Assembly: GCA_030589225.1 (NCBI GenBank)
Contig: JAUUWD010000016.1
Coordinates: 1 to 12,351, forward strand
Reading direction: 5' to 3'
From: Desulfobacteraceae bacterium
GTDB lineage: Bacteria > Desulfobacterota > DSM-4660 > Desulfatiglandales > Desulfatiglandaceae
Length of the DNA: 12,351 nucleotides
Positions 1-12,351 of this stretch are shown here, piece by piece (the first letter of the stretch is position 1; each line of letters opens with the position of its first letter). The position numbers and the translations under genes are program-made. The notes under the pieces were generated by a model. The model did not search any database, had not been told where the DNA came from, and was given only the letters and a program-made list of their open reading frames with translations.

Positions 1-575
1 ATGTGCACTCCTATGGAGAGCTTTTTACCCTGGCGACCGAATGCTACAAAACCTGTGATGATATACAGGGGAAAAAATTCAGGGTTGAGGGAGCCTGGAT
101 GGATTACTACAACAACCTGGGCGCCCGCGGGACTTATATCAGTGGTATGGAGGCCTACATGGGGTTGAAGCTGGGCACCATCGATGCATCACAGTGGGAT
201 GTGAGTGCCATTACCGGTCTGAAGTGGCATGAAGTGGCGCCATACCGGATTATTGGCGGGGGAAACGATATAGTCCCAGGGCAGATAGTATTCAGCATGA
301 AAAAATGGAAAGCTCTTCCTGATGATCTTAAAGAAGCGCTTAAAGGCGCTGCGGCTGACTATTTCCATCTGCTTAATGATGTCTACATGAAAGAAATGGA
401 AAAAGTCGACGAATTGGTCAAACAGGGTAAAGTCACCTACTGTGTTTTGGATGACGCATGTGAAAAGAAACATGCCGAAGTCGCTTATGCACTATGGGAT
501 GAGATTGCCAAGAGAGACCCGGCAGCTGCCAAAGCAGTTCAATTGATTAAGGACTGGAGAAAGACACTGAAGTAG
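1..575 (+). CDS. dctP: TRAP transporter substrate-binding protein, DctP family (5' truncated by window edge)
   Basis: This is the C-terminal ~190 residues of a periplasmic solute-binding protein; the reading frame is open to the left edge (bases 1-2 are part of a codon), so the signal peptide and N-terminal lobe lie outside the window. The segment GTIDASQWDVSAI matches the DctP-family hinge region, where an 'xGxIDxxxW' stretch follows the 'alqxG' helix. The helical tail ending in DWRKTLK is also typical of DctP proteins. The protein would capture the substrate in the periplasm and deliver it to the DctQ/DctM subunits encoded next. The gene ends with TAG, followed by a 99-base gap with a strong hairpin before dctQ. 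The ligand class (probably a carboxylate or amino-acid-like anion) cannot be determined, because the ligand-clamping arginine of TRAP binding proteins is not identifiable in this fragment. Family call is confident; substrate is unknown. Confidence 0.88.
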   Translation, partial: VHSYGELFTLATECYKTCDDIQGKKFRVEGAWMDYYNNLGARGTYISGMEAYMGLKLGTIDASQWDVSAITGLKWHEVAPYRIIGGGNDIVPGQIVFSMKKWKALPDDLKEALKGAAADYFHLLNDVYMKEMEKVDELVKQGKVTYCVLDDACEKKHAEVAYALWDEIAKRDPAAAKAVQLIKDWRKTLK

Positions 576-613
576 AAATAAAAATGACTCGTTATCCATA
601 TCCATATTGTTAA

Positions 614-651
614 GGGTGAAGGAGGGGGTTTGTTTTGCTCCCTCCTGACCC
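614..651 (+). other. Intergenic RNA hairpin between dctP and dctQ
   Basis: Bases 620-628 pair with 638-646 (nine pairs, one of them G-U) around a nine-base U-rich loop. After a small internal mismatch, GGGT (614-617) can pair with ACCC (648-651). No T-run follows, so this does not look like an intrinsic terminator. It sits where many TRAP operons need more binding protein than permease, so a role as a 3'-end stabiliser of dctP mRNA or an attenuation element is a reasonable inference. It also buries the GGAGG at 621-625, which argues against translation starting at the TTG at 630. Confidence 0.55.
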
Positions 652-674
652 CATTGGGCAGTGAGGTTTTAAGG

Positions 675-1163
675 ATGAATGATGGGATCAAGGGCTTTTT
701 CGAACTAATTGACACTATCACAGAGAAGATAGGCAGGCCTGCCAGTCTTTTGGTTTTTGTAATGACTGCTGTCACCACAACGGAAGTTGTGGGAAGGTAT
801 GTTTTTAATCACCCAACTATCTGGGCCTGGCCTCTGAATAGACAGATCTTTGGCCTGTTCATCCTTGTAGCAGGGGCCTATACTATGTCCAAAGACGGAC
901 ATATCAGGATCGAGATATTCTATGACCATTTTCCTCCCAGGATCAAACTGATTGCAAGATTAATTACTTTGTGCTGTTTTGTCATTTTTATGGGTGTGTT
1001 GCTCTGGCAGGCATCCTGGATGGGCTTGAATTCATTGAAGATGGGGGAGAAGATTACAGGGGCGTTTCGTATGCCTTTGTATCCATTTAAAATACTAATA
1101 CCCATATGCGTCTTTCTCTTTTTGCTTCAAGGGATTGCTGTTATTTGCCGACGCAAAGACTGA
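675..1163 (+). CDS. dctQ: TRAP transporter small permease subunit, DctQ family
   Basis: This small membrane subunit (162 residues from the ATG at 675) pairs with the large permease DctM to form the transmembrane part of the TRAP importer. Four hydrophobic segments are visible, roughly at residues 18-40, 54-72, 95-118 and 135-156. Between the second and third lies the family signature GHIRIEIFYDHFP, equivalent to the 'r.gHirvd' motif of DctQ proteins. The preceding region reads WAWPLNRQIFGLF, lacking the acidic 'eEl' pair common in other DctQ proteins, so this is a somewhat divergent branch. I chose ATG 675 over TTG 630 because GAGG at 663-666 is correctly spaced, the added N-terminus is not family-like, and the upstream site lies in a stable hairpin. 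It is followed after 23 bases by dctM. Confidence 0.85.
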   Translation: MNDGIKGFFELIDTITEKIGRPASLLVFVMTAVTTTEVVGRYVFNHPTIWAWPLNRQIFGLFILVAGAYTMSKDGHIRIEIFYDHFPPRIKLIARLITLCCFVIFMGVLLWQASWMGLNSLKMGEKITGAFRMPLYPFKILIPICVFLFLLQGIAVICRRKD

Positions 1164-1186
1164 TTAGAAATGAGGAATAGGATCTC

Positions 1187-2488
1187 GTGAGCATTGAGTT
1201 AGTTACGGTTCTTTTGTTTAGCGGCCTTCTTTTTCTATTGGCGATTGGGGTCCCTGTTGTCTTTGCGCTCGGCGGCATCAGCGTGGTCATCCTTTTTTTG
1301 ATAGGAGGTGTCAACGATCTATTCATAGTTGCCACAACAACTTACAGGCAAATCACAGACCCCGGCCTGATAACCATTCCCCTGTTCCTTCTTATGGGGA
1401 ATTTTTTGATCCATTCAGGGATATCTGATCGTCTGTTTAAGGCTTTAAACTACTGGTTGTCGGGCGTGAGGGGCGGTCTGGCAATCGTATCGGTTGGCGT
1501 TTGCGTTGCCCTGGCCATGTGCGGCGGATTTGGTCCCGGAATCCTCACCATGGGTCTGATTGCAGTGCCAGCCATGCTAAAACACGGCTATGATAAGTCC
1601 TTAGCCTTGGGGTGCGTTATGGCTGGCGGTGTTCTGGGTGAAATTATTCCTCCAAGCATCATCATGATTATTTTTGCCTATATTTCACGGATTTCAATAG
1701 GGAGGATTTTTTTTGGAGGTGCTATTCCTGGCTTTATCACTGCATTTCTATACATACTTTACATCACTGTAAGATGTTATCTCCAGCCGGATCTTGCACC
1801 CAGGTCCTCTGAGGAAATAACCTGGAAGATCAGATGGGCTTCAGTCAAGGATATAATCCTTCCTTCTTTACTGGTTGTCCTGGTCTTGGGGTCAATATTT
1901 ATGGGGATTGCCACCCCTACAGAGGCTGCCGGCGTGGGCGCCATGGGCTCTTTTTTGATCTGTATTGTTTATGGAAGGTTGACATGGAAGGTGATAACTG
2001 ACTCATGTCTTGAGACCATGAAAATCAGTGGTATGGCCCTGTGGATTTTGGTGGCAGCCACGCTCTTTGGTGTCGTTTATATCAGTGCAGGGGCACAAGA
2101 CATGGTCATGGAAATAGTAGAAAACCTGCCTGTTAATCGCTGGCTCATACTTGGAGTCATGCAAATCATACTCCTTGTATTTGGAATGTTCATGGATGAT
2201 TATGCTGTCTTGACCATATGCGCCCCAATTTTTATTCCCATTGCCGTCTTTCTGGGTTTTGATCCCATATGGTATGCAATCGTCTTTATCCTTAACATGC
2301 AGGTAGCTTACCTGACCCCCCCATTTGGCTGGGCCCTAATCTTGATGAGAGGGGTTGCCCCCCCTGAGATACATACCAAGGACATCTGGCGATCAATTCC
2401 TCCATTCGTGGGAATGCAGTTGATCGTTCTGGTCATTACTATGATATTCCCCCAGTTGGCCCTGTGGCTTCCAAATAAAATGCTTTAA
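1187..2488 (+). CDS. dctM: TRAP transporter large permease subunit, DctM family
   Basis: This 433-residue protein is almost entirely hydrophobic and has the normal length and repeated architecture of DctM, the sodium-coupled translocation subunit of TRAP importers. Hallmark segments are visible in order: GGFGPGILTMGLIAVPAML (~residues 109-127), GGVLGEIIPPSIIMIIFAY (~147-165, the first IPPS re-entrant loop), SIGRIFFGGAIPG, ATPTEAAGVGAMGS (~242-255), a second-half MDDYAVLTICAPIFIPIA segment (~343-360), and LTPPFGWAL (~378-386), the second re-entrant loop. The start is GTG at 1187, preceded by a TGAGGAATAGGA purine-rich site at 1171-1182. It is co-oriented with dctQ and almost certainly cotranscribed with it. 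The gene ends 167 bases before the SDR start codon; that gap holds two perfect hairpins. Confidence 0.93.
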   Translation: MSIELVTVLLFSGLLFLLAIGVPVVFALGGISVVILFLIGGVNDLFIVATTTYRQITDPGLITIPLFLLMGNFLIHSGISDRLFKALNYWLSGVRGGLAIVSVGVCVALAMCGGFGPGILTMGLIAVPAMLKHGYDKSLALGCVMAGGVLGEIIPPSIIMIIFAYISRISIGRIFFGGAIPGFITAFLYILYITVRCYLQPDLAPRSSEEITWKIRWASVKDIILPSLLVVLVLGSIFMGIATPTEAAGVGAMGSFLICIVYGRLTWKVITDSCLETMKISGMALWILVAATLFGVVYISAGAQDMVMEIVENLPVNRWLILGVMQIILLVFGMFMDDYAVLTICAPIFIPIAVFLGFDPIWYAIVFILNMQVAYLTPPFGWALILMRGVAPPEIHTKDIWRSIPPFVGMQLIVLVITMIFPQLALWLPNKML

Positions 2489-2505
2489 CCTTATTGCTTT
2501 CCCGA

Positions 2506-2528
2506 TTAACTTGATCCTTCCAAGTTAA
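2506..2528 (+). terminator. Perfect 8-bp hairpin downstream of dctM (possible transcript end or processing site)
   Basis: TTAACTTG (2506-2513) and CAAGTTAA (2521-2528) form an uninterrupted eight-pair stem around a seven-base loop, starting 18 bases after the dctM stop codon. The stem is AT-rich and is followed by ATCGTTATTAAT, not a clean T-run, so it is at best a weak intrinsic terminator. With the hairpin at 2541-2559 it marks the likely boundary between the transporter operon and the catabolic genes. Confidence 0.45.
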
Positions 2529-2540
2529 ATCGTTATTAAT

Positions 2541-2559
2541 CCACCAGTTCTACTGGTGG
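2541..2559 (+). terminator. Perfect 7-bp GC-rich hairpin in the dctM-SDR gap
   Basis: CCACCAG (2541-2547) pairs with CTGGTGG (2553-2559) around the loop TTCTA. It lies 12 bases after the first hairpin. The stem is strong but is followed by TTAGTGATT, with no T-run. It could be a terminator, an RNA stabilising structure or a dyad operator for a regulator of the downstream genes; the sequence alone does not decide. Confidence 0.45.
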
Positions 2560-2643
2560 TTAGTGATTACCTCAACAGTTGATGAATCCCAAAACCAGGC
2601 TTTCTGCAAGGTAATACAAATCACAACGAAGAAAACCGGGAAT

Positions 2644-2647
2644 GAGG
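2644..2647 (+). promoter_or_regulatory. Ribosome binding site deciding the SDR start
   Basis: GAGG lies eight bases upstream of the ATG at 2656. The frame is open upstream to a GTG at 2563, but the extra 31 residues are not SDR-like, and no ribosome site of this quality precedes the GTG. Confidence 0.55.
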
Positions 2648-2655
2648 TGTATTTT

Positions 2656-3468
2656 ATGAATGAGAAAGCAATGATGGATAAGAAAAACAGTGGCACAGGC
2701 AGGCTTGCAGGCAAGGTCGCTATTGTAACCGGCGCAGCCGGAGGGATTGGAGAAGCGACGGCCAGGTTGTTCGCCCGCGAGGGGGCAAAAGTCGTGGATG
2801 CGGACATCAAAGAAGTGCAAGGGCAGAAAGTAGTGCACGACATCCGTCAAGCGGGGGGAGATGCTTTTTATTTCGCCCATGATGTCAGGCGCGAGGACTC
2901 GTGGCAATCCTTGATGGAAGAAACGGTGAGCCGATACGGCAAACTCAATGTTTTGGTTAATAATGCGGGAATTATCAAAATCGCCGATATTGAAGACACA
3001 ACCTTGGAAGACTGGCAGGCGATCATGGATGTGAACGCCACCGGCGTTTTTCTGGGTACAAAGCTGGCCATCCTGACTATGAAATCAAATGGCGAACTTT
3101 GTTCGATTATCAACCGATCGTCTGTCGCCGGACAAGTCGGTGATAAAACCATGTTCGCTTATTGCGCTTCAAAGGGGGCGGTCACACTTCTGACCAAGGC
3201 CGCCGCTCTAGGCTGTGCGGCTAAAGACTACAAAATCCGCATTAACTCGGTTCATCCCGCGTATGTCCGAACCGACATGACTAAGGGCGAAGCGGCCGAA
3301 GTAGGACTCAGTGAAGAGGAGTACATGGAAGGCGCTAAATCCATACATCCCATTGGTGTAGGTGAGGCCATTGATGTGGCTTACCTGGATCTTTTCTTAG
3401 CCTCGGATGAATCAAGATGGGTTACCGGCGCAGAGTTCAACATTGATGGCGGCTTAACCGCCCAGTAG
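2656..3468 (+). CDS. Short-chain dehydrogenase/reductase (classical SDR), probably NAD(H)-dependent
   Basis: A 270-residue classical SDR: a soluble Rossmann-fold oxidoreductase that would interconvert an alcohol and a carbonyl. Visible motifs are the nucleotide-binding TGAAGGIG (25-32), an acidic residue at the end of strand beta-2 (DAD, 48-50) that usually favours NAD over NADP, NNAG (102-105), and the catalytic tetrad Asn127, Ser156, Tyr169 and Lys173 in the YCASK motif. PAYVRTDM (201-208) and the C-terminal GAEFNIDGG are standard. The sequence resembles the cyclic-alcohol/hydroxysteroid dehydrogenase branch, but I cannot name the substrate. About 17 polar residues precede the first strand, longer than average; an alternative ATG at 2671 would shorten this. 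It lies between the TRAP operon and the P-protein-like genes, so it may oxidise or reduce the imported compound. Confidence 0.9.
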   Translation: MNEKAMMDKKNSGTGRLAGKVAIVTGAAGGIGEATARLFAREGAKVVDADIKEVQGQKVVHDIRQAGGDAFYFAHDVRREDSWQSLMEETVSRYGKLNVLVNNAGIIKIADIEDTTLEDWQAIMDVNATGVFLGTKLAILTMKSNGELCSIINRSSVAGQVGDKTMFAYCASKGAVTLLTKAAALGCAAKDYKIRINSVHPAYVRTDMTKGEAAEVGLSEEEYMEGAKSIHPIGVGEAIDVAYLDLFLASDESRWVTGAEFNIDGGLTAQ

Positions 3469-3476
3469 CGAAAAGG

Positions 3477-3507
3477 GGGCACATGGCTTAAAACCCTCCC
3501 CATGCCC
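3477..3507 (+). other. Imperfect inverted repeat after the SDR gene
   Basis: GGGCACATGG (3477-3486) can pair with CCATGCCC (3500-3507) if two bases bulge, with a 13-base loop. It lies just downstream of the SDR stop codon and has no T-run. It may be a weak mRNA structure in the 125-base gap before the GcvPA-like gene, or may be chance. I see nothing else in this gap apart from the ribosome binding site at 3581-3585. Confidence 0.25.
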
Positions 3508-3580
3508 TCAGGAGCACAATATATTGCTTGAAAGGTGAGAGACTTGGTCGTATCACTAGGTTATGCAGTTACACTGGTAT

Positions 3581-3585
3581 AGGAG
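3581..3585 (+). promoter_or_regulatory. Ribosome binding site of the GcvPA-like gene
   Basis: AGGAG ends eight bases before ATG 3594. The frame is open further upstream to a TTG at 3528, but the family-conserved N-terminus (HPYIPNS, then the IEELF segment) begins just after 3594, so this site fixes the start. Confidence 0.7.
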
Positions 3586-3593
3586 ATAAAACC

Positions 3594-5000
3594 ATGGAAA
3601 ATGAAAAACACTTTGTTCATCCCTATATACCGAATTCTGTTTCCGAGGTAAAGAAGGAGTTAATGGGGGAGATCGGTATAACTGAGATAGAAGAGCTTTT
3701 TTGCGATCTTCCCGTTAGGGCAGACCCCTTCGAGCTGCCGGGGCCCATGACAGAGTACGAACTGAGACGGCATATGGAAAAAATCCTTTCGAAAAACCGG
3801 GATGACTTGTTGGTTTTTTGTGGGGCCGGTTGCTGGCCTCATTATGTGCCGGCGGTGGTGGATGAGATTATAAATCGGACTGAGTTCAAGACGGCCTATC
3901 TCGGGTTGCCTGAAGCGGAGAAGGGTAAGATGCAGGCCCTGTTCGAGTTCCAGAGTCTCATGGCCGAGTTGATTAGCATGGATGTGGTCATCAACTCGGT
4001 TTACGATTGGTCCACAGCGGCTGGCGAGGCAGCCAACATGGCCCGACGACTGACCGGACGTGGTCAGATCCTGGTTCCGGAGAACATCAGCCCTGACAGA
4101 CTCGGCGTGATAAGCACTTACACCAAGTGGACCGGAGCCAGAGTGGAACGGGTGGCCTTTGACCCCGGAAAGGGAACACTCAATTTGGGTGACTTGGAAG
4201 AGAAAGTTGGCCCGGAAACGGCCTGTATCTACATTGAGAATCCCAGCTATTTGGGTGTTATCGAGGACCAGACGGACGAAGTGGCCAGGATAGCCCATGG
4301 TGCCGGTGCTGTTTTCGTTGTTGGCGTGGATACTTCTTCGTTAGGGGTCTTGAGGCCACCCGGCGAATATGGGGCGGACGTGGTTGTGGGAGAGGCTCAA
4401 CCGTTAGGGTTGCACATGAACTTCGGAGGCAACTTCTTGGGGATATTTGGATGCAAGGACGACCAAGCCTATCTTGACCAGCTCCCAGGCTATGTGGGTG
4501 CTGTCGCCCCCACAGTGGACGGAAAGGGAAGGGGTTACCTTGATACCTTGTGGGACCGGCGGCATTTTTTTTCGCAGCGTGAAAACGCCACCTCGCTGAT
4601 CGGATCATCCAGCAACCTCTGTGCGATAGGTGCTGCTGTTTACATGTCTCTTCTAGGGCCTCAAGGGATGCGCGATCTGGGCGAAGCAATCGTTGCCAAA
4701 GCCAACTATGCCATCAAACGCATCAGTGAAATCGAAGACCTCAAGGGCCCTGTCTTGGGGGGCTCCCATTTCAAGGAATTTATAGTCAATTTTGACGGTA
4801 TAAATGCCAAAGTCTCGGACGTGAACAAAGCCCTCTATGTCGACTATGCCATTGTAGGTGGCAAGGACATCTCAAAAGAGTTCCCAAACCTTGGACAGAG
4901 CGCACTTTATTGTGTTACCGAAGTGCACACCTTGGAAGACATCGAGCAACTCGTGTATGCCTTAACCGAGATCGCGAAAGGAGGTGGCAGTGATGTATAG
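3594..5000 (+). CDS. gcvPA: Glycine dehydrogenase (decarboxylating) subunit 1-like protein, divergent GcvPA homologue
   Basis: This 468-residue protein is homologous to the N-terminal half (alpha subunit) of the PLP-dependent glycine decarboxylase P-protein, which works as an alpha2beta2 enzyme in glycine cleavage. Family features are YIPNS (11-15), EIEELFCDLP (31-40), the FCGAGCWPHYVPAVV stretch (75-89), NRTEF.TAY (94-102), ADVVVGEAQPLGL (261-273) and a VDGKGRGY segment (308-315). Several hallmarks differ from what I recall of GcvPA: the strongly conserved 'TPYQPEISQG' after TAY is replaced by LGLPEAEKGK (103-112), and 'REKATSNICTNQ' is replaced by RENATSLIGSSSNLCA (329-344), with about five extra residues. 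The overall fold is clear, but glycine specificity should not be assumed. It overlaps the GcvPB-like gene by eight bases, so the two are translationally coupled partners. Confidence 0.85.
   Translation: MENEKHFVHPYIPNSVSEVKKELMGEIGITEIEELFCDLPVRADPFELPGPMTEYELRRHMEKILSKNRDDLLVFCGAGCWPHYVPAVVDEIINRTEFKTAYLGLPEAEKGKMQALFEFQSLMAELISMDVVINSVYDWSTAAGEAANMARRLTGRGQILVPENISPDRLGVISTYTKWTGARVERVAFDPGKGTLNLGDLEEKVGPETACIYIENPSYLGVIEDQTDEVARIAHGAGAVFVVGVDTSSLGVLRPPGEYGADVVVGEAQPLGLHMNFGGNFLGIFGCKDDQAYLDQLPGYVGAVAPTVDGKGRGYLDTLWDRRHFFSQRENATSLIGSSSNLCAIGAAVYMSLLGPQGMRDLGEAIVAKANYAIKRISEIEDLKGPVLGGSHFKEFIVNFDGINAKVSDVNKALYVDYAIVGGKDISKEFPNLGQSALYCVTEVHTLEDIEQLVYALTEIAKGGGSDV
4980..4984 (+). promoter_or_regulatory. 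Ribosome binding site of the GcvPB-like gene inside the end of GcvPA-like
   Basis: GGAGG sits within the last codons of the upstream gene, eight bases before ATG 4993. In-frame GTG codons at 4984 and 4990 are poorer candidates because one overlaps and the other nearly abuts this site. Confidence 0.7.
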
Positions 5001-6519
5001 ACAAGCCCGATACGATGAACCCTGCATCTTTGAGATGGGGCGCAGTGGAACGAGAGGTCATCTGGTGCCCCGAGTGGAAACCGAGATCAAGGACGCTGTC
5101 GGTGATGGTTGGTCCCACATTCCGGCAAATATGCGGCGCAATAACCCACCCGGGCTTCCTGAGCTCTCAGAGGTGGAAGTGATGAGACACTTTTTCCGTC
5201 TCTCACAAGAGAGCACCTGCGTAGACAGCGGATTCAATGCCGAAGGGACATGCACCATGAAATATAACCCCAAGGTCAATGAGACCTTGGCCGGATCGTC
5301 CAAGGTGGCCAACCTTCACCCCTTCCAGGACGAAGAGAGCGTCCAAGGGATGTTAGAAATATTGTACCGGCTTGGCGAGTGCTTCAAGGCTATAAGCGGA
5401 TTTGATGCGGTCAGCTTTCAGCCACCGTCGGGCACACTATCAGAGTTCACAGAGTGCCTTATAATCGCAGCTTTTCACAGGCATAACGGCAACGATCACA
5501 AGACCGAACTCATCGTACCATATACCTCCCACGGCACAAACGCCGTGGCGGCCAAAATGGCAGGCTTCAACGTGATCACCATCGACCAGACAGAAGATGG
5601 AAACCTGGACTTTGAGGCCTTTAAAGAGGCCGTGTCAGAGCGAACCGCGGGCATGCTCCAGACCAATCCAACCTCCCTGAGTGTCTTTGATACCAATATT
5701 ATGACCGTGGGAGACATTATTCACGAAGTGGGAGGGATTTTCGCCTATGATGCGGCCAACACCAACTCGGTTATGGGACGTGCAAGGCCCAAAGATTTGA
5801 ATTTTGATCTGGTTCATTACAATGCGCACAAGGCCTTCTCCAGCCCCCATGGCGGCTACGGTCCGGGCATGGGTGTCGTTGTCGTCTCCAAAGAGCTGGC
5901 GTCTTTTTTACCCTCACCCACGGTTGGGTTTGACGGGAAGCGTTACTTCCTCGATTTTAACAGACCCTTAAGCATTGGCAGGGTTAAGCAGTTCTATGGC
6001 AACGTGCCTAATGCGATCCGGGTCTATGCCTGGATTCTGGCTATGGGTTCTGAAGGCATTGCCACAGCCACAGACATCGCAGTATTGAATAACAACTATA
6101 TCATGCACAAGATGAAACAGATTCGGGGTATCAGTGTGCCCATGGCCGAGGGCAGGGCACGCATGGAGGAGACGGTCTTCAGCCTCAAGCAGATGTTGGA
6201 TGAAACCGGGGTTGATGCCCACCATTTTTCCCTCCGGGTAGCGGATTTTGGCCCCAACAGCACTTTCACCTTGGGTTACCCGACCTATGTGGAGGAACCG
6301 TGGGTCATCGAACCCACCGAGAGCCTGGACAAGAAGGAGATCGATAATTTTATTGATATCGTCCGTAGCGTGGCCGAGGAGGCATACGACAATCCTGAAA
6401 TAATCCTGAAGGGTCCGCAAAATTGCGCTGTGGGAGAGGTTGACATGGCCGCATCGGAGGATCCAGTGACCATGGCACTTACCTGGCGAATGTATCGTAA
6501 AAAAGGGCTCAAGTTCTAG
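4993..6519 (+). CDS. gcvPB: Glycine dehydrogenase (decarboxylating) subunit 2-like protein, divergent GcvPB homologue
   Basis: This 508-residue protein is homologous to the C-terminal, PLP-binding half of the P-protein. Conserved blocks include SEVEVMRHFFRLSQ (59-72), CTMKYNPKVNE (87-97), ANLHPFQDEESVQG (106-119), SHGTN (179-183), LTNP-type QTNPTSLSVF (223-232), and YNAHKAFSSPHGGYGPG (276-292), where Lys280 is the expected Schiff-base lysine. The C-terminal EPTES (440-444) is also standard. Against this, the cofactor-contacting 'QPAAGAHGE' block is changed to QPPSGTLSE (143-151), losing the usual His/Gln, and the 'GFHPPT' block before the C-terminus reads FGPNST (419-424). The enzyme should bind PLP and probably catalyses an amino-acid decarboxylation or related reaction with its alpha partner, but the substrate pocket looks altered. 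No GcvH or GcvT gene is seen in the window. Confidence 0.87.
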   Translation: MYRQARYDEPCIFEMGRSGTRGHLVPRVETEIKDAVGDGWSHIPANMRRNNPPGLPELSEVEVMRHFFRLSQESTCVDSGFNAEGTCTMKYNPKVNETLAGSSKVANLHPFQDEESVQGMLEILYRLGECFKAISGFDAVSFQPPSGTLSEFTECLIIAAFHRHNGNDHKTELIVPYTSHGTNAVAAKMAGFNVITIDQTEDGNLDFEAFKEAVSERTAGMLQTNPTSLSVFDTNIMTVGDIIHEVGGIFAYDAANTNSVMGRARPKDLNFDLVHYNAHKAFSSPHGGYGPGMGVVVVSKELASFLPSPTVGFDGKRYFLDFNRPLSIGRVKQFYGNVPNAIRVYAWILAMGSEGIATATDIAVLNNNYIMHKMKQIRGISVPMAEGRARMEETVFSLKQMLDETGVDAHHFSLRVADFGPNSTFTLGYPTYVEEPWVIEPTESLDKKEIDNFIDIVRSVAEEAYDNPEIILKGPQNCAVGEVDMAASEDPVTMALTWRMYRKKGLKF

Positions 6520-6541
6520 GCCTATAACGAGCAATAAAACC

Positions 6542-7666
6542 ATGGACCATAAAAGAGTGGCTCTGATTGTCAATCCAGTGGCAGGCATGGGTGGTCGGGT
6601 CGGTCTAAAAGGAAGCGATGGTGAGGAGACTCTTCGGCGGGCCAGGGAGCTTGGTGCCACTCCCAGTGCACCTGGTAGGACGGTTGAAGCACTGATGGGC
6701 CTTGCCCCTCTTACAGCCAAGATTGAACTCATCTCATATCCGGCGGAGATGGGCGAGGCAGAAGCCCGAGAGGCCGGGTTCGAGCCCAAGGTCATCGGTC
6801 GTATCGACCCTGGCCGAACTACAGCTGAGGACACCATTCGGGCTGCGAGGGAGATGGCTACGATGGACCTGGATCTGTTGCTTTTTGCTGGTGGTGACGG
6901 CACGGCTCGGGACATATATAAGGCCATCGGGTTAGAAGTCCCAGTTGTGGGGATACCTGCCGGTGTAAAAATACATTCCGGGGTCTATGCGATTAACCCG
7001 ACCCGGGCAGCAAGACTTATTGAGATGTACCTGCGAGGCCAGGTCAAGGCGCTAAGAGAAGTCGAGGTCATGGACATAGACGAAGAGGCCTTTCGTCAGG
7101 GGAGGATCTCGGCTCGTCTATACGGCTACCTTAAGGTGCCCCTTGAACGGAGGCTGACCCAGGGAGCCAAAGCGGCCTCGGCTGGGGGCGAGCACGAGAC
7201 GCTGGCTATGCAATCCATCGCCGAGCAGATCGTTGAAACCATGGAAACTGACTGTCTGTATATTATCGGTTCAGGCACTACCCCCCGGGCAATCATGGAA
7301 TGCCTCAGTCTCAAAAACACCCTGCTGGGTATTGATATCATCCTGAATGGTAAACTTGTGGCAATGGATTTAAACGAGAATCAAATCTTAGATCTGGTCA
7401 ACGATAAGATGGCAAAAATCATCGTCACCCCCATTGGTGGTCAGGGTTACATATTTGGTCGAGGGAATCAACAGTTGAGCCCTAATGTCATAAAAGAGGT
7501 TGGGGTTAGCAACATCATCGTAATAGCAACCCAAAACAAGCTGAACTCCCTGAAACGAAAGCCACTTCTCGTCGATACGGGTGATAGGGAGGTGGATAGT
7601 ATGTTGAGGGGGTATATGAGAGTGGTTACAGGTTACAAGGAGGAAATGATATACAAAGTCGCATAG
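6542..7666 (+). CDS. ATP-NAD/AcoX kinase family protein (COG3199-like)
   Basis: A 374-residue soluble protein of the predicted ATP-dependent NAD kinase/AcoX family. It shows the diacylglycerol-kinase/NAD-kinase-type N-terminus LIVNPVAGMGG (8-18), the catalytic GGDGTARD (117-124), VVGIPAGVKIHSGVYA (135-150), GSGTTPRA (243-250) and the characteristic TPIGGQGYIFGRGNQQLSP region (296-314). NAD kinases make NADP from NAD; the exact activity of this branch is not established to my knowledge, and AcoX is known from acetoin catabolic operons. ATG 6542 must be the start because the conserved nucleotide-binding strand begins within the first ten residues, yet no convincing Shine-Dalgarno site precedes it. 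Its position 22 bases after the GcvPB-like gene suggests coupled expression and a role in supplying cofactor to, or modifying, the neighbouring PLP enzyme pathway. That role is inference. Confidence 0.85.
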   Translation: MDHKRVALIVNPVAGMGGRVGLKGSDGEETLRRARELGATPSAPGRTVEALMGLAPLTAKIELISYPAEMGEAEAREAGFEPKVIGRIDPGRTTAEDTIRAAREMATMDLDLLLFAGGDGTARDIYKAIGLEVPVVGIPAGVKIHSGVYAINPTRAARLIEMYLRGQVKALREVEVMDIDEEAFRQGRISARLYGYLKVPLERRLTQGAKAASAGGEHETLAMQSIAEQIVETMETDCLYIIGSGTTPRAIMECLSLKNTLLGIDIILNGKLVAMDLNENQILDLVNDKMAKIIVTPIGGQGYIFGRGNQQLSPNVIKEVGVSNIIVIATQNKLNSLKRKPLLVDTGDREVDSMLRGYMRVVTGYKEEMIYKVA

Positions 7667-7780
7667 TTCACGCGGGGAATAAAGTATGTAAGGCCTACAA
7701 GGAGTAGGTAAGCTTCGTAAATGAATTAATGGACTAAACCGGACCACTCAAAACCATTTCTTTCATGAACATTGCTGGTT

Positions 7781-7788
7781 AAGGAGGT
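7781..7788 (+). promoter_or_regulatory. Near-consensus ribosome binding site of the corrinoid protein gene
   Basis: AAGGAGGT, seven bases from GGAGG to ATG 7795, is the strongest Shine-Dalgarno match in the window and suggests high expression. The preceding 128-base gap otherwise shows only a short CCTAC/GTAGG stem (7694-7708); I found no cobalamin-riboswitch B12 box and no convincing promoter. Confidence 0.7.
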
Positions 7789-7794
7789 TTAACA

Positions 7795-8427
7795 ATGACA
7801 GAAAATTTGATCACACTGCTTGTGGAGTTAAAGGAACAAGACTGTCTCCGGGTCACCGGGGAGAGGCTGGAGGCCGGAGAGGACCCTCACAAAATTGTTG
7901 AAGATGCCAGAGAAGCAATGAAGATCGTGGGCCAGCGGTTTGCGGACAATGTATATTTTATTCCCGACCTTGTTTATTCGGGCAAGATTCTTGAACAGAT
8001 ATCTGAGATAGTGAAACCTAAGTTATCACAGAAGTCCCAACCTAAGCGCCTCGGGAAGTTCGTCATTGGCTCTGTCGCGGGAGACTTGCATGATATTGGT
8101 AAGAATTTGGTGTCTTTCATGTTGGATGTGAGCGGTTTCGAGGTATTCGACCTGGGGGTTGATGTCCCAGCCCAGGCTTTTGTGGACAAAATCAAGGAAG
8201 TGGAGGCTGAGGTGCTGGGCCTGAGTGGCTTTTTGACCTCGGTCTATCAGGCAATGAAGGATACGGTGGAGGCCGTAAAGACCGCGGGTTTGAGGGACCA
8301 GGTGAAGATTATGATCGGAGGGGGTGTGATGGATGATGAGGTGAAAAAGTTCTCCGGCGCGGACGCATATCGGCCGGACGCCATGGCGGCTGTGACCCTG
8401 GCCAAAGAATGGATTGGAGGTGCATAA
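7795..8427 (+). CDS. Corrinoid (cobalamin-binding) methyl-carrier protein, MtaC/MtbC/MttC-like
   Basis: This 210-residue protein has the standard two-domain layout of methyl-accepting corrinoid proteins: an N-terminal helical cap (~1-80) that covers the methyl-cobalamin face, and a C-terminal Rossmann-type B12 domain (~87-210). The cobalt-binding motif GDLHDIGKN gives D-x-H-x-x-G with His99 as lower axial ligand. The GLSGFLT (142-148) and MIGGGV (173-178) loops that hold the nucleotide tail are present, and the length matches the family. It would carry a methyl group from a substrate methyltransferase to a second methyltransferase in the cytoplasm. The next gene overlaps it by one base and encodes a URO-D-family methyltransferase, its likely partner. 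Which of the methyl-donor classes it serves (methanol, amines, methoxy compounds, thiols) is not readable from the sequence. Confidence 0.95.
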   Translation: MTENLITLLVELKEQDCLRVTGERLEAGEDPHKIVEDAREAMKIVGQRFADNVYFIPDLVYSGKILEQISEIVKPKLSQKSQPKRLGKFVIGSVAGDLHDIGKNLVSFMLDVSGFEVFDLGVDVPAQAFVDKIKEVEAEVLGLSGFLTSVYQAMKDTVEAVKTAGLRDQVKIMIGGGVMDDEVKKFSGADAYRPDAMAAVTLAKEWIGGA

Positions 8428-9740
8428 TGGCGGATAAGACGACGGAAAATCTTGAACGTTGGTGTTCTGGAGAAGGCATTGATTTTATCAATGGCGAGGC
8501 TGAAGCCGCCTATAAGAGGCGGGCTCGGAGGATCGCCGATGTCATTCAACTTAAAATCCCTGATCGGGTTCCTATCGTGCCCAGCTTTGGCATGTTTCCC
8601 TACCTGGACAACGGTCTGACCTGTGAGGAGGCCGTGTTTGATTATGAGAAGGCCCATCAGGCCGCTATGAAAACCTTAGAGGAGTTTGAACCTGATATGT
8701 TTCTGGGTTCGGGCTACGCATTTCCAGCCCCTCTTTTTGAAGCCCTGGGATACAAGCAAATAAGATGGCCCGGACAGGAAATTCCGGCCCATTATGTCTA
8801 TCAGTTTGTGGAAGATGAATACGTAAAGGCCGAGGAGTTTTACGACCATTACCTGGGTGACCCCTCTGACTTCATGCTCCGCGTCTATCTCCCGCGCGTC
8901 TGCAGCCAGTTAACACCGTTAGAACGGATTCGTCCTTTTGCCGAGTCCTTTGGGTATTACCTGACAATGTGCGGCTCTTATGCCTATTTTGGCATCCCAG
9001 AGGTCCAGGAGGCCCTAAAGGCTCTGATGAAAGCGGGGGAGGAATCACTCAAGTGGGTGAGCATCCTCGGGAAACAGGCCGAAGAGATTGTTTCGCGCGG
9101 TTTCCCTCTGTTTGAAGGGGGAGAATCAGCCGCACCTTATGACTTGGTGGGGGACTGGTTCAGGGGGACTGCCGGTGTGATGACGGATATGTACAGATGC
9201 CCTGACAAGCTTCTGGCAGTCATGGAGAAGCTGGTACCCATCTCGATCAAGATGGGTTTGGATCTTGCCAAAGACACTGGACATCCTATCATCGGCTTTA
9301 TGTTACACAAAGGGGCTGACGGTTTTATGTCCCCAGAGCAGTTCAACACCTTTTACTGGCCCCCTCTGAAGAAGGTCATGATGGGACTGATTGAGGAAGG
9401 GTTTGTACCACTTTTGCTCTGCGAAGGGGAATACACGTCCCGTCTGGAAACCATCGCGGACATACCGAAGGGCAAATGCATCTATTGGTTTGAAAAAGTG
9501 GATTGGGCCAGGGCCAAGGAAATTTTAGGGGAGACAGTATGTATTCGGGGAGGGGTCCCGGCTTCAATCCTTTTCTCCGGGACAGTTCAGCAAATGAAAG
9601 ACTGCCTCAAAGAGGTCATTGACGTGGTGGGTAAAGGAGGTGGCCTGATCGTTGACTGCGGTCTCTGGTTTGACGAGGCCAAGCATGAAAACGTCAAGAC
9701 TATGGTCGAATTCACCAAGGAATACGGGGTATACAGATAA
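8427..9740 (+). CDS. Uroporphyrinogen decarboxylase family (URO-D) protein, probable corrinoid-linked methyltransferase
   Basis: This 437-residue protein belongs to the URO-D superfamily, which includes the MtaA/MtbA/CmuA cobalamin methyltransferases. The N-terminal KIPDRVPIVPSFGMFPYL (43-60) matches the 'PDRVPv' opening, and the C-terminal half shows the VDWARAKEILGETVCIRGGVP (358-378) and SGTVQQMKDC (384-393) segments of the TIM barrel. It starts at ATG 8427 in the TAATG overlap with the corrinoid gene, with TGGAGG at 8415-8420 six bases upstream. The known methyltransferases carry a zinc-binding H-x-C; here the equivalent strand reads LLLCEGEYTSRL (329-340), leaving Cys332, Glu333 and Glu335, and Cys411 lies near the usual second cysteine. 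It is about 100 residues longer than MtaA. True haem-pathway HemE is unlikely because of length and context. Methyl donor and acceptor are unknown. Confidence 0.85.
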   Translation: MADKTTENLERWCSGEGIDFINGEAEAAYKRRARRIADVIQLKIPDRVPIVPSFGMFPYLDNGLTCEEAVFDYEKAHQAAMKTLEEFEPDMFLGSGYAFPAPLFEALGYKQIRWPGQEIPAHYVYQFVEDEYVKAEEFYDHYLGDPSDFMLRVYLPRVCSQLTPLERIRPFAESFGYYLTMCGSYAYFGIPEVQEALKALMKAGEESLKWVSILGKQAEEIVSRGFPLFEGGESAAPYDLVGDWFRGTAGVMTDMYRCPDKLLAVMEKLVPISIKMGLDLAKDTGHPIIGFMLHKGADGFMSPEQFNTFYWPPLKKVMMGLIEEGFVPLLLCEGEYTSRLETIADIPKGKCIYWFEKVDWARAKEILGETVCIRGGVPASILFSGTVQQMKDCLKEVIDVVGKGGGLIVDCGLWFDEAKHENVKTMVEFTKEYGVYR

Positions 9741-9763: not shown

Positions 9764-12022
9764 ATGAAAGAAGCCAAGAGTACTGAGGTTAAGCGAGCCC
9801 TTTGTTTTGGCTGTTGGCTACAGGCTGGCGTATTGGCGACTGTCGAAGACGGGAAAGTGGTGAAGCTCAAGGGTGAGCCCGACCACCCGGTGAACCAGGG
9901 CTGGATCTGCGAGCGTTCAAAGGCATTTATTGAGCATCTGTATCATGAGGATCGTCTTAATTATCCTCTGAAGAGAGTTGGTGACAGGGGAGATGGCAAA
10001 TGGGAAAGAATCTCATGGGAGGATGCCTTAGACCAGGTGGCCGAAAAACTGGATAAAATCAAGATGGAAAATGGCGCTGAGGCGGTTGCGTCTGTTGGGG
10101 GTACTGGTAGGGGTTTTTCAGAGATGTTCAAAGCAAGATTTATGAATCTTTTTGGGAGCCCCAACCGCGCAAATGCCGGGCAGTGGTGCTCTGTTGTGAG
10201 CCGTCAGATACATGCTGCTATTTACGGGGCCGGCGCCAGCAGATCTGTAAAGCAACCCTGCAAATGCGCGGTAATCTGGGGAGGGAATCCGGCTGAATCC
10301 CTGGCTTGCACGTTTACAAGCCTCCTCAAGGCCAAGAAACAGGGCACGAAGTATATTGTCATTGATCCTAAGTACTCTGAGAGCGTGAACCGGCTCGCAC
10401 ACCAGTGGGTGCAACTAAGACCTGGCACTGATGCTGCTCTGGCCCTGGGCTGGTTGAATGTGATTATAGAGGAGGACCTCTATGATAAGAATTTTGTTGA
10501 GACGTGGTGTCATGGATTTAGTGAGTTGAGAGAACGCATAAAACAATACTCTCCCAAGAAAGTTGCCGAAATAACCTGGGTGCCGGAAGAAGAAATAATT
10601 CAATCAGCACGGCTATATGCCACAAGCAAACCGGCATCTATTATCTGGGGTGTGAAGTCGGACATGCAAGGCAGGAATGTTACCAGCATTACCCAGGCCA
10701 AATGCATACTCAGGGCAATAACCGGCAACCTTGATGTAATGGGCGGCGACATGCTTGCAGGGCCTTGCGAAAAGGCCAACTACGGCCCTGTCCTTGAGAA
10801 TATGGACATGCTGCCGCCAGAGCAGAGAAAGAAGCAACTCGGTGCGGACAGGCATAAGCTTTGGGGCTATCCGGGATATGAATTGGTTCACCAGGCAGCA
10901 AAACCTTACTGGTATGGAAAGGGGTTAACTTCTGGTTTCCTCCCCGCTTGCCATGAGCCGGATATATGGACGGCCATACTTGCAGGTAAGCCATACCCGG
11001 TCAAGGGGTTGATTTGTGGAGCTTGTAATCCACTGGTCGCATATCCCAACACTAAAAGGATCTACAAGGCATTGAAAAGCCCAGATCTTGAGCTTTTCGT
11101 GGTCGCTGAGCAGTGGCTGACACCAACGGCCATGCTTGCCGACTATGTGTTCCCAATTACCAATTGGCTGGAACATCCCCAGATGTGCACCCAGACCTTC
11201 CAGGGGCACGGCAACATCGCTTCAGTAGGACAGAGAGTGATTCAGCCCCTGCATGAGCGCAGGACCGATTATGAATTCTATCAAGGCCTGGGGTTGAGGC
11301 TGGGACAGGGAGATTACTGGCGAGAAACCCTCAACAAAGAATGGGACTGGTGTTTGGGACCTTTACTTAATGAGCTTGACATGCAGTCTGCAGAGGAATT
11401 TGCAAAGAAGCAACGCTGGTGGACACCTCCGGTTGTGGAAAAAAGATACCAAACAGTCGATCCGGGAACCGGAAAGCCAAAGGGATTTGCCACACCAACT
11501 GGAAAGGTTGAACTCTATTCTACTATTCTTGAGCAACTGGGATATGATCCATTGCCCCGCTATGAAGAGCCTCCGGAAACACCCGTGAGCCAGCCGGAAC
11601 TCGCCAAAAAGTACCCATTTATTCTGATAACCGGCTCCAGATTTCGACCTATGCACCACTCAGAGCATAGACAGATACGCTCGCTTCGCCGGCTCTATCC
11701 ATACCCAACAGTTGAAATCAATCCAGATACGGCCCGGAGGTTAGGCATTGGTGAAGGCGACTGGGTTGTCATAGAGACACCTAGAGGGAAGATTAAGCAG
11801 AAAGCGAAGCTCACTTCCAGAATTAACCGCAGGGTGATTGAGGCACAGCATGGATGGTGGTTCCCCGAGGAGATTGCTGACGACCCACTGCTATACGGAG
11901 TTTTCGAATCAAATGTCAATGTCCTGACAACCGATGACGATGAATACTGCGATCCCCCTACCGGGGCAGTTACCTTTGGTCCTCTGCTGTGCAAGGTTTA
12001 CCCCCTTAAGAAATATACTTAA
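9764..12022 (+). CDS. Molybdopterin (Mo or W) oxidoreductase, DMSO reductase superfamily, single catalytic subunit
   Basis: A 752-residue bis-pterin enzyme. Domain order fits the superfamily: an N-terminal Fe-S domain (Cys14, Cys17, Cys49), the molybdopterin domain (RISWEDALDQVAEKL at ~82-96 onward), and a C-terminal dinucleotide-binding beta-barrel (~617-752) beginning FILITGSRF and containing RRLGIGEGDWVVIETPRG. Cys142, in AGQWCSVVS, is placed as the Mo/W ligand, much as in acetylene hydratase. The Fe-S motif reads C-x2-C-x3-Ala-x27-C, so the third cluster ligand is Ala21. No twin-arginine signal is present, so it should be cytoplasmic. No complete partner subunit gene is seen beside it, in contrast to respiratory members of the family. 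The reaction cannot be named; hydratase, transhydroxylase or ferredoxin-linked redox chemistry are all possible. Confidence 0.9.
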   Translation: MKEAKSTEVKRALCFGCWLQAGVLATVEDGKVVKLKGEPDHPVNQGWICERSKAFIEHLYHEDRLNYPLKRVGDRGDGKWERISWEDALDQVAEKLDKIKMENGAEAVASVGGTGRGFSEMFKARFMNLFGSPNRANAGQWCSVVSRQIHAAIYGAGASRSVKQPCKCAVIWGGNPAESLACTFTSLLKAKKQGTKYIVIDPKYSESVNRLAHQWVQLRPGTDAALALGWLNVIIEEDLYDKNFVETWCHGFSELRERIKQYSPKKVAEITWVPEEEIIQSARLYATSKPASIIWGVKSDMQGRNVTSITQAKCILRAITGNLDVMGGDMLAGPCEKANYGPVLENMDMLPPEQRKKQLGADRHKLWGYPGYELVHQAAKPYWYGKGLTSGFLPACHEPDIWTAILAGKPYPVKGLICGACNPLVAYPNTKRIYKALKSPDLELFVVAEQWLTPTAMLADYVFPITNWLEHPQMCTQTFQGHGNIASVGQRVIQPLHERRTDYEFYQGLGLRLGQGDYWRETLNKEWDWCLGPLLNELDMQSAEEFAKKQRWWTPPVVEKRYQTVDPGTGKPKGFATPTGKVELYSTILEQLGYDPLPRYEEPPETPVSQPELAKKYPFILITGSRFRPMHHSEHRQIRSLRRLYPYPTVEINPDTARRLGIGEGDWVVIETPRGKIKQKAKLTSRINRRVIEAQHGWWFPEEIADDPLLYGVFESNVNVLTTDDDEYCDPPTGAVTFGPLLCKVYPLKKYT

Positions 12023-12024: not shown

Positions 12025-12078
12025 TTAAACATACTACTTTACTATTCAATGTAGATCAATGTGTCAAGGAGGAACCCT

Positions 12079-12351
12079 ATGTCCCTAAAAGATAGAAAAC
12101 CTGTTGCTCCTTATATGGCGGTAGGCCTATCTACTGTCGCGTACGGCATTGCCGAGCGAAAACACATCAAGCGCAATCTGGAAACCATAGAAGAAAACAT
12201 CCACGCTGCCGTCTCAATGGTCAATGTCAATATGCCTGTCAAGGCCATTGCCCTGGCTGAAGGTGCGCTCACAGGTTTTACCGATGAGGCGTTTGATTTA
12301 CCTCATACGCTGGCAGCGAAGGAGCTCTTCATTGACATTCCGGGCGAAGAG
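12079..12351 (+). CDS. Nitrilase-superfamily carbon-nitrogen hydrolase (3' truncated by window edge)
   Basis: An open frame of 91 codons from ATG 12079 to the window end, preceded by AAGGAGG (12066-12072) with six-base spacing. The translation has the first helix and strand of the nitrilase fold: NLETIEENIHAAVS (33-46), then VKAIALAEGALTGF (54-67), where Glu61 fits the first catalytic glutamate of the Glu-Lys-Cys triad in the 'lxPExxxtGy' motif. A later IDIPGEE (85-91) also fits family members. The Lys and Cys lie beyond the window. Such enzymes hydrolyse nitriles, amides, N-carbamoyl or N-acyl amino acids; the specific substrate is not readable from this fragment. It is the last visible gene of the operon and may release the amine or acid that the upstream enzymes process. 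Confidence 0.75.
   Translation, partial: MSLKDRKPVAPYMAVGLSTVAYGIAERKHIKRNLETIEENIHAAVSMVNVNMPVKAIALAEGALTGFTDEAFDLPHTLAAKELFIDIPGEE

Follow-up and report, generated by a model that had tools for sequence, protein, structure and literature searches.

Among the nearest described counterparts of the genes considered here is the two-subunit P-protein of glycine decarboxylase, GcvPA/GcvPB (PDB 1wyt), to which two products of a 12,351-nucleotide stretch of Desulfobacteraceae DNA (contig JAUUWD010000016.1 of assembly GCA_030589225.1; the whole stretch is hereafter 'the window') are related. These products, P'alpha and P'beta (together P'), have in common with GcvPA/GcvPB their family, their division into two subunits and the lysine, aspartate and histidine of the pyridoxal phosphate (PLP) site, but differ in forming a clade of their own, in having kinase-like and dehydrogenase partners, in adjoining gcvH in only one of 84 neighbourhoods, and in occurring in three draft genomes without GcvT or a convincing GcvH. 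Threonine dehydrogenase and 2-amino-3-ketobutyrate coenzyme A ligase (Tdh-Kbl) combine a dehydrogenase with a PLP enzyme, a likeness to P' of logic only: the Kbl model is not among the family matches of P', and the one Tdh-like alcohol dehydrogenase that precedes a P' gene falls below the Tdh cut-offs. The ATP-NAD-kinase family, which includes AcoX, shares the NAD_kinase and NAD_kinase_C domains and a GGDGT motif with a third product of the window. Lastly, the chloromethane system CdmB/CdmC consists, as do two adjacent genes of the window, of a protein of the uroporphyrinogen decarboxylase (URO-D) family lacking an HxC motif and a two-domain corrinoid protein. CdmB of Acetobacterium dehalogenans is described as a zinc-free haloalkane methyltransferase related to O-demethylases, with haloalkanes but not methylamines as substrates (PMC13222342).

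An earlier note on this DNA had proposed that positions 3594-9740 may hold a single undescribed module, in which both halves of a divergent P-protein, an AcoX/NAD-kinase-like protein, a corrinoid protein and a URO-D-family methyltransferase would dismantle an N-methylated or otherwise substituted amino acid, with the TRAP system as importer. The five families, their coordinates and their co-oriented, partly overlapping arrangement are borne out by open reading frames (ORFs), family searches and intergenic gaps, and no description of a P-protein pair with an NAD-kinase-like protein was found in the literature, in a search that reached few subscription papers. The single five-part module is not supported: judged by comparison of sequences, the conserved core is P'alpha-P'beta with the NAD/diacylglycerol-kinase-like protein, in bacteria and archaea alike, and glycine cleavage is probably not the process that P' serves.

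Conservation of the P' core and of the five-gene set

Contigs were scanned with a three-sequence P'alpha alignment and two short N-terminal patterns, giving 349 stretches and 318 relatives. Locus counts refer to the best 80 of these 318, with flanks reaching 10 kb at most; 53 loci extend 3 kb or more beyond P' on its downstream side, and 61 do so on the upstream side. Neighbours are BLAST matches (E 1e-5) among ORFs no shorter than 80 residues; L062 is apparently the same contig as L038, and the P'alpha ORF of L041 stops ~200 bases short of its match. Among the hosts of P' are Asgard archaea, Bathyarchaeota, Bacillota, Aminicenantes, Acidobacteriota, Chloroflexota and Deltaproteobacteria. A kinase-like gene is present in 52 of the 80 loci, 47 times downstream within the P' run, and in 52 of 60 once ten loci with ordinary archaeal P-proteins and ten that end right after P' are excluded; a match to the short-chain dehydrogenase/reductase (SDR) of the window is present in 56 of 80, 48 times upstream in the run. 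Neither was detected in any of the ten ordinary archaeal loci. P' was found in four of 61 relatives of the window (G000, the window's own genome, G049, G055 and G059), and a kinase-like gene at E <= 1e-30 in all four of these versus three of the 57 others, one of the three being a remnant (L233, below).

The corrinoid and URO-D genes behave otherwise. No URO-D relative was found in the 80 loci, and corrinoid relatives in two (L044 and L070), both outside the co-directional P' run; without the ten ordinary archaeal loci the counts become 0/70 and 2/70, and since some downstream flanks are short, some cases could have been missed. On the opposite strand of L044, the corrinoid gene is grouped with those for MttB and MtmB, and that of L070 follows an MttB fragment, upstream of SDRs. 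The 80 loci total 1.19 Mb, for which density alone predicts ~1.6 corrinoid genes, a rough comparison based on 144 B12-binding_2 matches in 37 of these genomes (~107 Mb, sums of rounded values), with neighbourhoods searched by BLAST and genomes by hidden Markov models; the two observed cases are close to this expectation and were rejected as independent support. The five-family set was likewise rejected as a conserved unit, because URO-D was found in none of the 80 loci and the corrinoid/URO-D pair is missing from the same place in L041 and L233 and present elsewhere without a detected P'. The earlier note had named a gene order not conserved in other genomes as one thing that would refute its module; in the loci surveyed the order is not conserved, and judged in this way the module is not supported.

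The description of the P-protein as divergent, on the other hand, holds good, as P' is 42-48% identical to relatives of its own type versus 33-40% to ordinary GcvPA/GcvPB, both within the window's order. In an alpha-subunit tree of 109 rows, which includes the ordinary GcvPA of P' genomes, P' forms a single 67-row clade (support 99), with the window and L041 as a deep branch inside it (support 100). The clade adjoins ordinary archaeal P-proteins and is separate from the ordinary GcvPA of the same genomes, so that P' appears to be an offshoot of the archaeal type, still inside the P-protein family. By this tree ten of the 80 loci (L042, L043, L045, L047, L048, L050, L067, L079, L110 and L112) hold ordinary archaeal P-proteins; of the other 70, 65 fall in the P' clade, four (L052, L091, L094 and L097) are placed in the beta tree only, and L058 is present in neither. 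Of the 24 ordinary rows from the window's order, 16 were omitted from the alpha tree, as were L038 and the ordinary copy in L037; the beta tree had 12 ordinary rows, of one order, and omitted 15 of 27 ordinary rows, the ordinary L037 row and L038. An ordinary-type GcvPA accompanies P' in 28 of 33 P' genomes, by reading of the match table. Lys283, Asp256 and His183 of the window's P'beta, which we take to be the PLP lysine, the PLP aspartate and the stacking histidine of the beta subunit, are kept in 74 of 74 beta rows (seven of them ordinary archaeal) and in 27 of 27 ordinary rows, in a count made without the ordinary L037 row. As separate observations, the ten ordinary archaeal loci are Bathyarchaeal P-proteins bearing P'-like alpha-subunit motifs, and some genomes have multiple P'-like copies by BLAST (L092/L217 in G107, L080/L223 in G102, L218-L220 in G108), the extra copies having differing neighbours, as if specialised for distinct substrates.

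The kinase-like partner keeps the GGDGT motif, and lipid kinases share its fold. Unlike described ATP-NAD kinases it has no NCBIfam match and no PDB sequence match, and its structural model (26 rows; predicted local distance difference test 86.9; predicted template modelling (TM) score 0.65) matches diacylglycerol kinases first, at a TM of only ~0.27, with NAD kinases likewise weak. An NAD kinase assignment by fold was not adopted on this model.

Further neighbours of P' point to amino acids. CN hydrolase genes are found near P' in the window, L041 and L073, and other hydrolases comprise M20-family proteins (L046, L100), an M29 peptidase (L054) and a dipeptidase-like ORF identified by eye (L223); L071 has a proline-racemase-family protein, below cut-off. 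Transporters vary between TRAP, SSF, Na+/H+-antiporter-family and sugar-type ABC systems. In the second P' copy of Maledivibacter (L217), the SDR's place before P' is occupied by a zinc alcohol dehydrogenase that scores best, below cut-off, against the model for L-threonine 3-dehydrogenase. In L058 and L106, P' and the kinase gene are followed by thioredoxin-reductase and glycine-reductase genes, in L106 with an ABC transporter in between; with GrdE proteins 91% identical, these two loci amount to roughly a single case. A GrdE fragment also lies ~7.6 kb past P'beta in L080.

The window and its corrinoid/URO-D pair

The window (G000:C280) derives from a 2.0 Mb draft of 355 contigs, 65.67% complete, and holds eleven genes, all on the + strand, from TRAP transporter genes to the start of a CN hydrolase gene:

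3..575, +, TRAP substrate-binding protein DctP, truncated at the window start (PF03480, E 3.5e-22)
630..1163, +, TRAP small permease DctQ, assigned by position and 63% identity to the same-place ORF of L041, without a family search
1187..2488, +, TRAP large permease DctM (PF06808, E 4.4e-82; 79% to L041)
2653..3468, +, SDR-family dehydrogenase (PF13561, E 4.7e-55)
3594..5000, +, P'alpha, GcvPA-like subunit (PF02347, GDC-P, E 2.7e-64)
4984..6519, +, P'beta, GcvPB-like PLP subunit
6542..7666, +, NAD/diacylglycerol-kinase-superfamily protein (PF01513, NAD_kinase; PF20143, NAD_kinase_C; GGDGT motif)
7795..8427, +, corrinoid carrier protein (PF02310, B12-binding, E 6.9e-20; PF02607, B12-binding_2, E 3e-11)
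8424..9740 (alternative start 8409), +, URO-D-family, CdmB-like methyltransferase (PF01208, E 4.1e-17)
9764..12022, +, molybdopterin protein, relative of acetylene hydratase (PF00384, E 1.1e-35)
12061..12351, +, start of a CN hydrolase, truncated at the window end; without a match in the Pfam search, and 85% identical over 82 residues to the PF00795 protein of L041

From P'alpha to the URO-D gene the intergenic gaps are -17, 22, 128 and -4 bases, followed by 23 and 38 bases up to the CN hydrolase gene.

Comparison with the nearest relatives indicates where the pair departs from the rest of the run. L041, from Desulfobacterales, is 80% identical to the window in P'alpha, 83% in P'beta and 76% in the kinase-like protein, and its TRAP, P'alpha, P'beta, kinase and CN hydrolase genes follow one another in that order; the kinase and CN hydrolase genes are direct neighbours, and no SDR precedes P'. 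In L233 (G002:C63, positions 2-5053), from the window's own genus, a transposase-like ORF identified by eye precedes the remnant of a kinase-like gene, split over two frames and 87-88% identical, followed by a molybdopterin gene and a CN hydrolase gene, with no corrinoid or URO-D match between remnant and hydrolase; the CN hydrolase is 88-92% identical (88% to that of L041), and the molybdopterin protein only 40%. The slot between kinase and hydrolase is thus empty in L041, holds a molybdopterin gene in L233 and the pair plus a molybdopterin gene in the window, and is therefore variable, the pair having been either gained in the window or lost in its relatives. L038/L062, from another family, repeat the window's TRAP-SDR-P'alpha-P'beta-kinase order, without the pair in the ~0.7 kb beyond the kinase gene. 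Separately, a Chloroflexi contig (L073, 6815-8014) has a CN hydrolase 75% identical to that of L041 over 397 residues and a P' of only 44-46%, as if the hydrolase had moved separately from P'.

Relatives of the URO-D protein at E <= 1e-100 are found in 26 of 85 genomes of the window's order, its own included. In the six best other genomes (G082, G056, G044, G067, G053 and G073) no P'-type alpha subunit was detected, G056, G044 and G073 having weaker ordinary-type matches. A corrinoid gene lies directly 5' of the URO-D gene in the window, L182, L183, L185 and L186, but not in L181 or L184, so that four of the six loci (in G056, G044, G053 and G073) have the pair without detected P', beside other transporters. 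In L183 and L186 the pair is followed by a methyl-tetrahydrofolate methyltransferase identified by family search, and in L182 by one recognised solely from its GERINP motif; L183 and L186 also have a RACo/AcsV-like corrinoid activator. Such loci resemble complete methyltransferase systems in which the URO-D protein would be the substrate enzyme.

CdmB is the only solved relative found for the window's URO-D protein, and the main match covers residues 200-437 (E 7.7e-35). The HxC motif, which we take to be the zinc motif of MtaA/CmuA-type methylcobamide methyltransferases, is missing from this protein: its histidine column holds proline in 60 of 64 aligned rows (the window, 60 of 120 relatives and three controls), and HxC occurs somewhere in 10 of the 120 relatives, as well as in three control URO-D proteins of the window's own genome (L040, L039). 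The URO-D family assignment of the earlier note is thus retained, and an MtaA-like role was rejected in favour of a resemblance to the substrate methyltransferase CdmB. By sequence, the pair looks like a CdmB-type substrate methyltransferase (methyltransferase I) with its carrier, differing from CdmB/CdmC in the partial match and in having no methyl-acceptor enzyme adjoining it. Elsewhere in the own genome, L040 (G000:C108) has two HxC-type URO-D proteins, an MtrH-family protein, a corrinoid-like protein (by sequence) and a RACo-like activator of 1151 residues with a pyridine-nucleotide-disulphide oxidoreductase domain, and in L039 (G000:C267) a TRAP transporter and an ORF that by eye resembles a CoA ligase lie between URO-D genes, one of which is in two pieces. 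The MtrH-family protein, corrinoid protein and activator of C108 could, we infer, serve the window's pair.

For the molybdopterin protein downstream, acetylene hydratase (2e7z) is the best solved relative, over the full length (E 6.3e-128). Taking Asp13 to be the catalytic residue of that enzyme, alongside four iron-sulphur cysteines and a metal-ligand cysteine, the last of these is aligned in the window protein, but tryptophan stands at the Asp13 position and alanine at the third iron-sulphur cysteine; identity as an acetylene hydratase was rejected for these two changes.

Competing explanations of the run

Our tentative preference, which we place a little short of an even chance, is that the run is an accreted catabolic operon, with a P'-kinase core working outside glycine cleavage and the corrinoid/URO-D pair added later. 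The core P', an offshoot of the archaeal-type P-protein, would have been joined in the window by a TRAP importer and a CN hydrolase; it may form an aldimine with an amino acid that is imported or released from an amide, and may cleave a bond of the alpha carbon without lipoyl-GcvH, either by decarboxylation or by splitting a beta-keto or beta-hydroxy amino acid that the SDR or threonine-dehydrogenase-like enzyme encoded next to it would produce. A route from dehydrogenase to beta-keto amino acid to PLP-dependent cleavage, yielding glycine or an amine, fits the neighbours, and decarboxylation of another amino acid by P' is equally compatible with them. The kinase-like protein might supply NADP or phosphorylate a product. 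The pair would have been inserted between the kinase-like and CN hydrolase genes, its CdmB-like enzyme methylating the corrinoid protein, from which an enzyme of the MtrH or MeTr type, encoded elsewhere, would pass the methyl group to tetrahydrofolate. A wider version, which we consider rather unlikely, holds that P' is an undescribed enzyme whose substrates are amino acids other than glycine, cleaved with no need of a lipoyl H-protein, and that it is served by a dedicated kinase of the NAD/diacylglycerol-kinase superfamily and an alcohol dehydrogenase; that it has spread, sometimes in multiple copies per genome, through Asgard archaea, Bathyarchaeota, Bacillota, Chloroflexota, Aminicenantes and Desulfobacterota, its importer or hydrolase differing between lineages; and that in the window a CdmB-like demethylase has been added, which would open up a methylated form of the same substrate.

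Several observations weigh against the preferred reading, and most are what one would expect if P' were a second ordinary glycine decarboxylase using the cell's GcvH in trans, in an operon that oxidises glycine or a derivative, an explanation that we hold to be possible but on the unlikely side. Curated NCBIfam models name both subunits GcvPA and GcvPB, with cut-offs passed (456.5 bits against 364 for P'alpha, 541.9 against 441 for P'beta) and the PLP residues kept, and the P' branch sits within the P-protein tree, next to ordinary archaeal rows. The tryptophan changes of the alpha subunit (SYxH to CWxH, YDG to YDW) are shared with ordinary rows of the L042 type; the beta changes (HGTN to HPxD, NPNTLG to NPEDTG, DGAN to DQAN) typify most P' rows and argue against an ordinary decarboxylase, but the window retains HGTN. 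A GcvH survey of 36 genomes, of which G086, G096 and G116 have only the ordinary archaeal type, leaves 33 with P', and 30 of these have a GcvH match of E 7.5e-29 or better, as has the window's own genome (E 2.1e-38), so P' could use GcvH in trans. In G049, the source of the one neighbourhood with a GcvH-like ORF, P' lies immediately before gcvH-gcvPA-gcvPB; this locus (L037, G049:C98) reads P'alpha-P'beta-kinase directly 5' of gcvH, the ordinary gcvPA-gcvPB and lipB/lipA-like ORFs identified by eye. Glycine-reductase genes near P' in L058, L106 and L080 agree with a glycine-related role, and the variable transporters and hydrolases indicate no one substrate. Set against an ordinary decarboxylase are the supported clade that P' forms, usually in addition to an ordinary GcvPA, and the 83 of 84 neighbourhoods, many of them short, without a GcvH-like ORF. 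No GcvH was found in G102 or G120, and in G100 only a 45-residue match (E 1.7e-4) that is formally above the family cut-off; GcvT is absent from these three, as from G000 and G099, among 12 genomes examined, but all three are drafts of unstated completeness.

For the pair, the pathway of the earlier note, in which it demethylates an N-methylated amino acid and P' decarboxylates the remainder, seems to us improbable. It draws on the tight co-orientation in the window, on the corrinoid genes no more than 10 kb from P', accompanied by MttB and MtmB in L044 and by an MttB fragment in L070, and on the Grd-type reductase genes of three P' loci, the GrdB of L058 scoring best against the sarcosine GrdF model, below its cut-off. 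It conflicts with the survey (no URO-D in 80 loci, corrinoid genes in two versus ~1.6 expected), with the absence of the pair from the same place in L041 and L233, with its existence apart from P', and with the haloalkane rather than methylamine substrates of CdmB, the only solved relative (PMC13222342). That the pair is instead a passenger without functional tie to P', which is compatible with either the accreted operon or an ordinary decarboxylase, is a possibility that we take seriously while doubting it. The same absences speak for it, as do the 128 bases before the corrinoid gene, the largest gap within 3594-9740, and the other transporters beside the pair in other genomes. Against a passenger, a consensus scan of 7400-7900 gave no promoter-like and no plus-strand terminator-like site (one terminator-like site lies on the minus strand), and short gaps continue into the molybdopterin and CN hydrolase genes; such operon-like spacing, which also counts against the preferred reading, means that pair and P' may be co-expressed in the window.

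Implications for the P-protein family

The corrinoid/URO-D neighbours of this one window alone cannot carry a pathway for methylated amino acids. The wider consequence lies with P', as the P-protein has been treated as a one-reaction family and curated models label P' a glycine dehydrogenase. If the P' clade acts otherwise, glycine oxidation is being predicted too often for Asgard archaea, Bathyarchaeota and anaerobic bacteria, and the clade would represent a PLP-dependent activity with a steady kinase-like partner.

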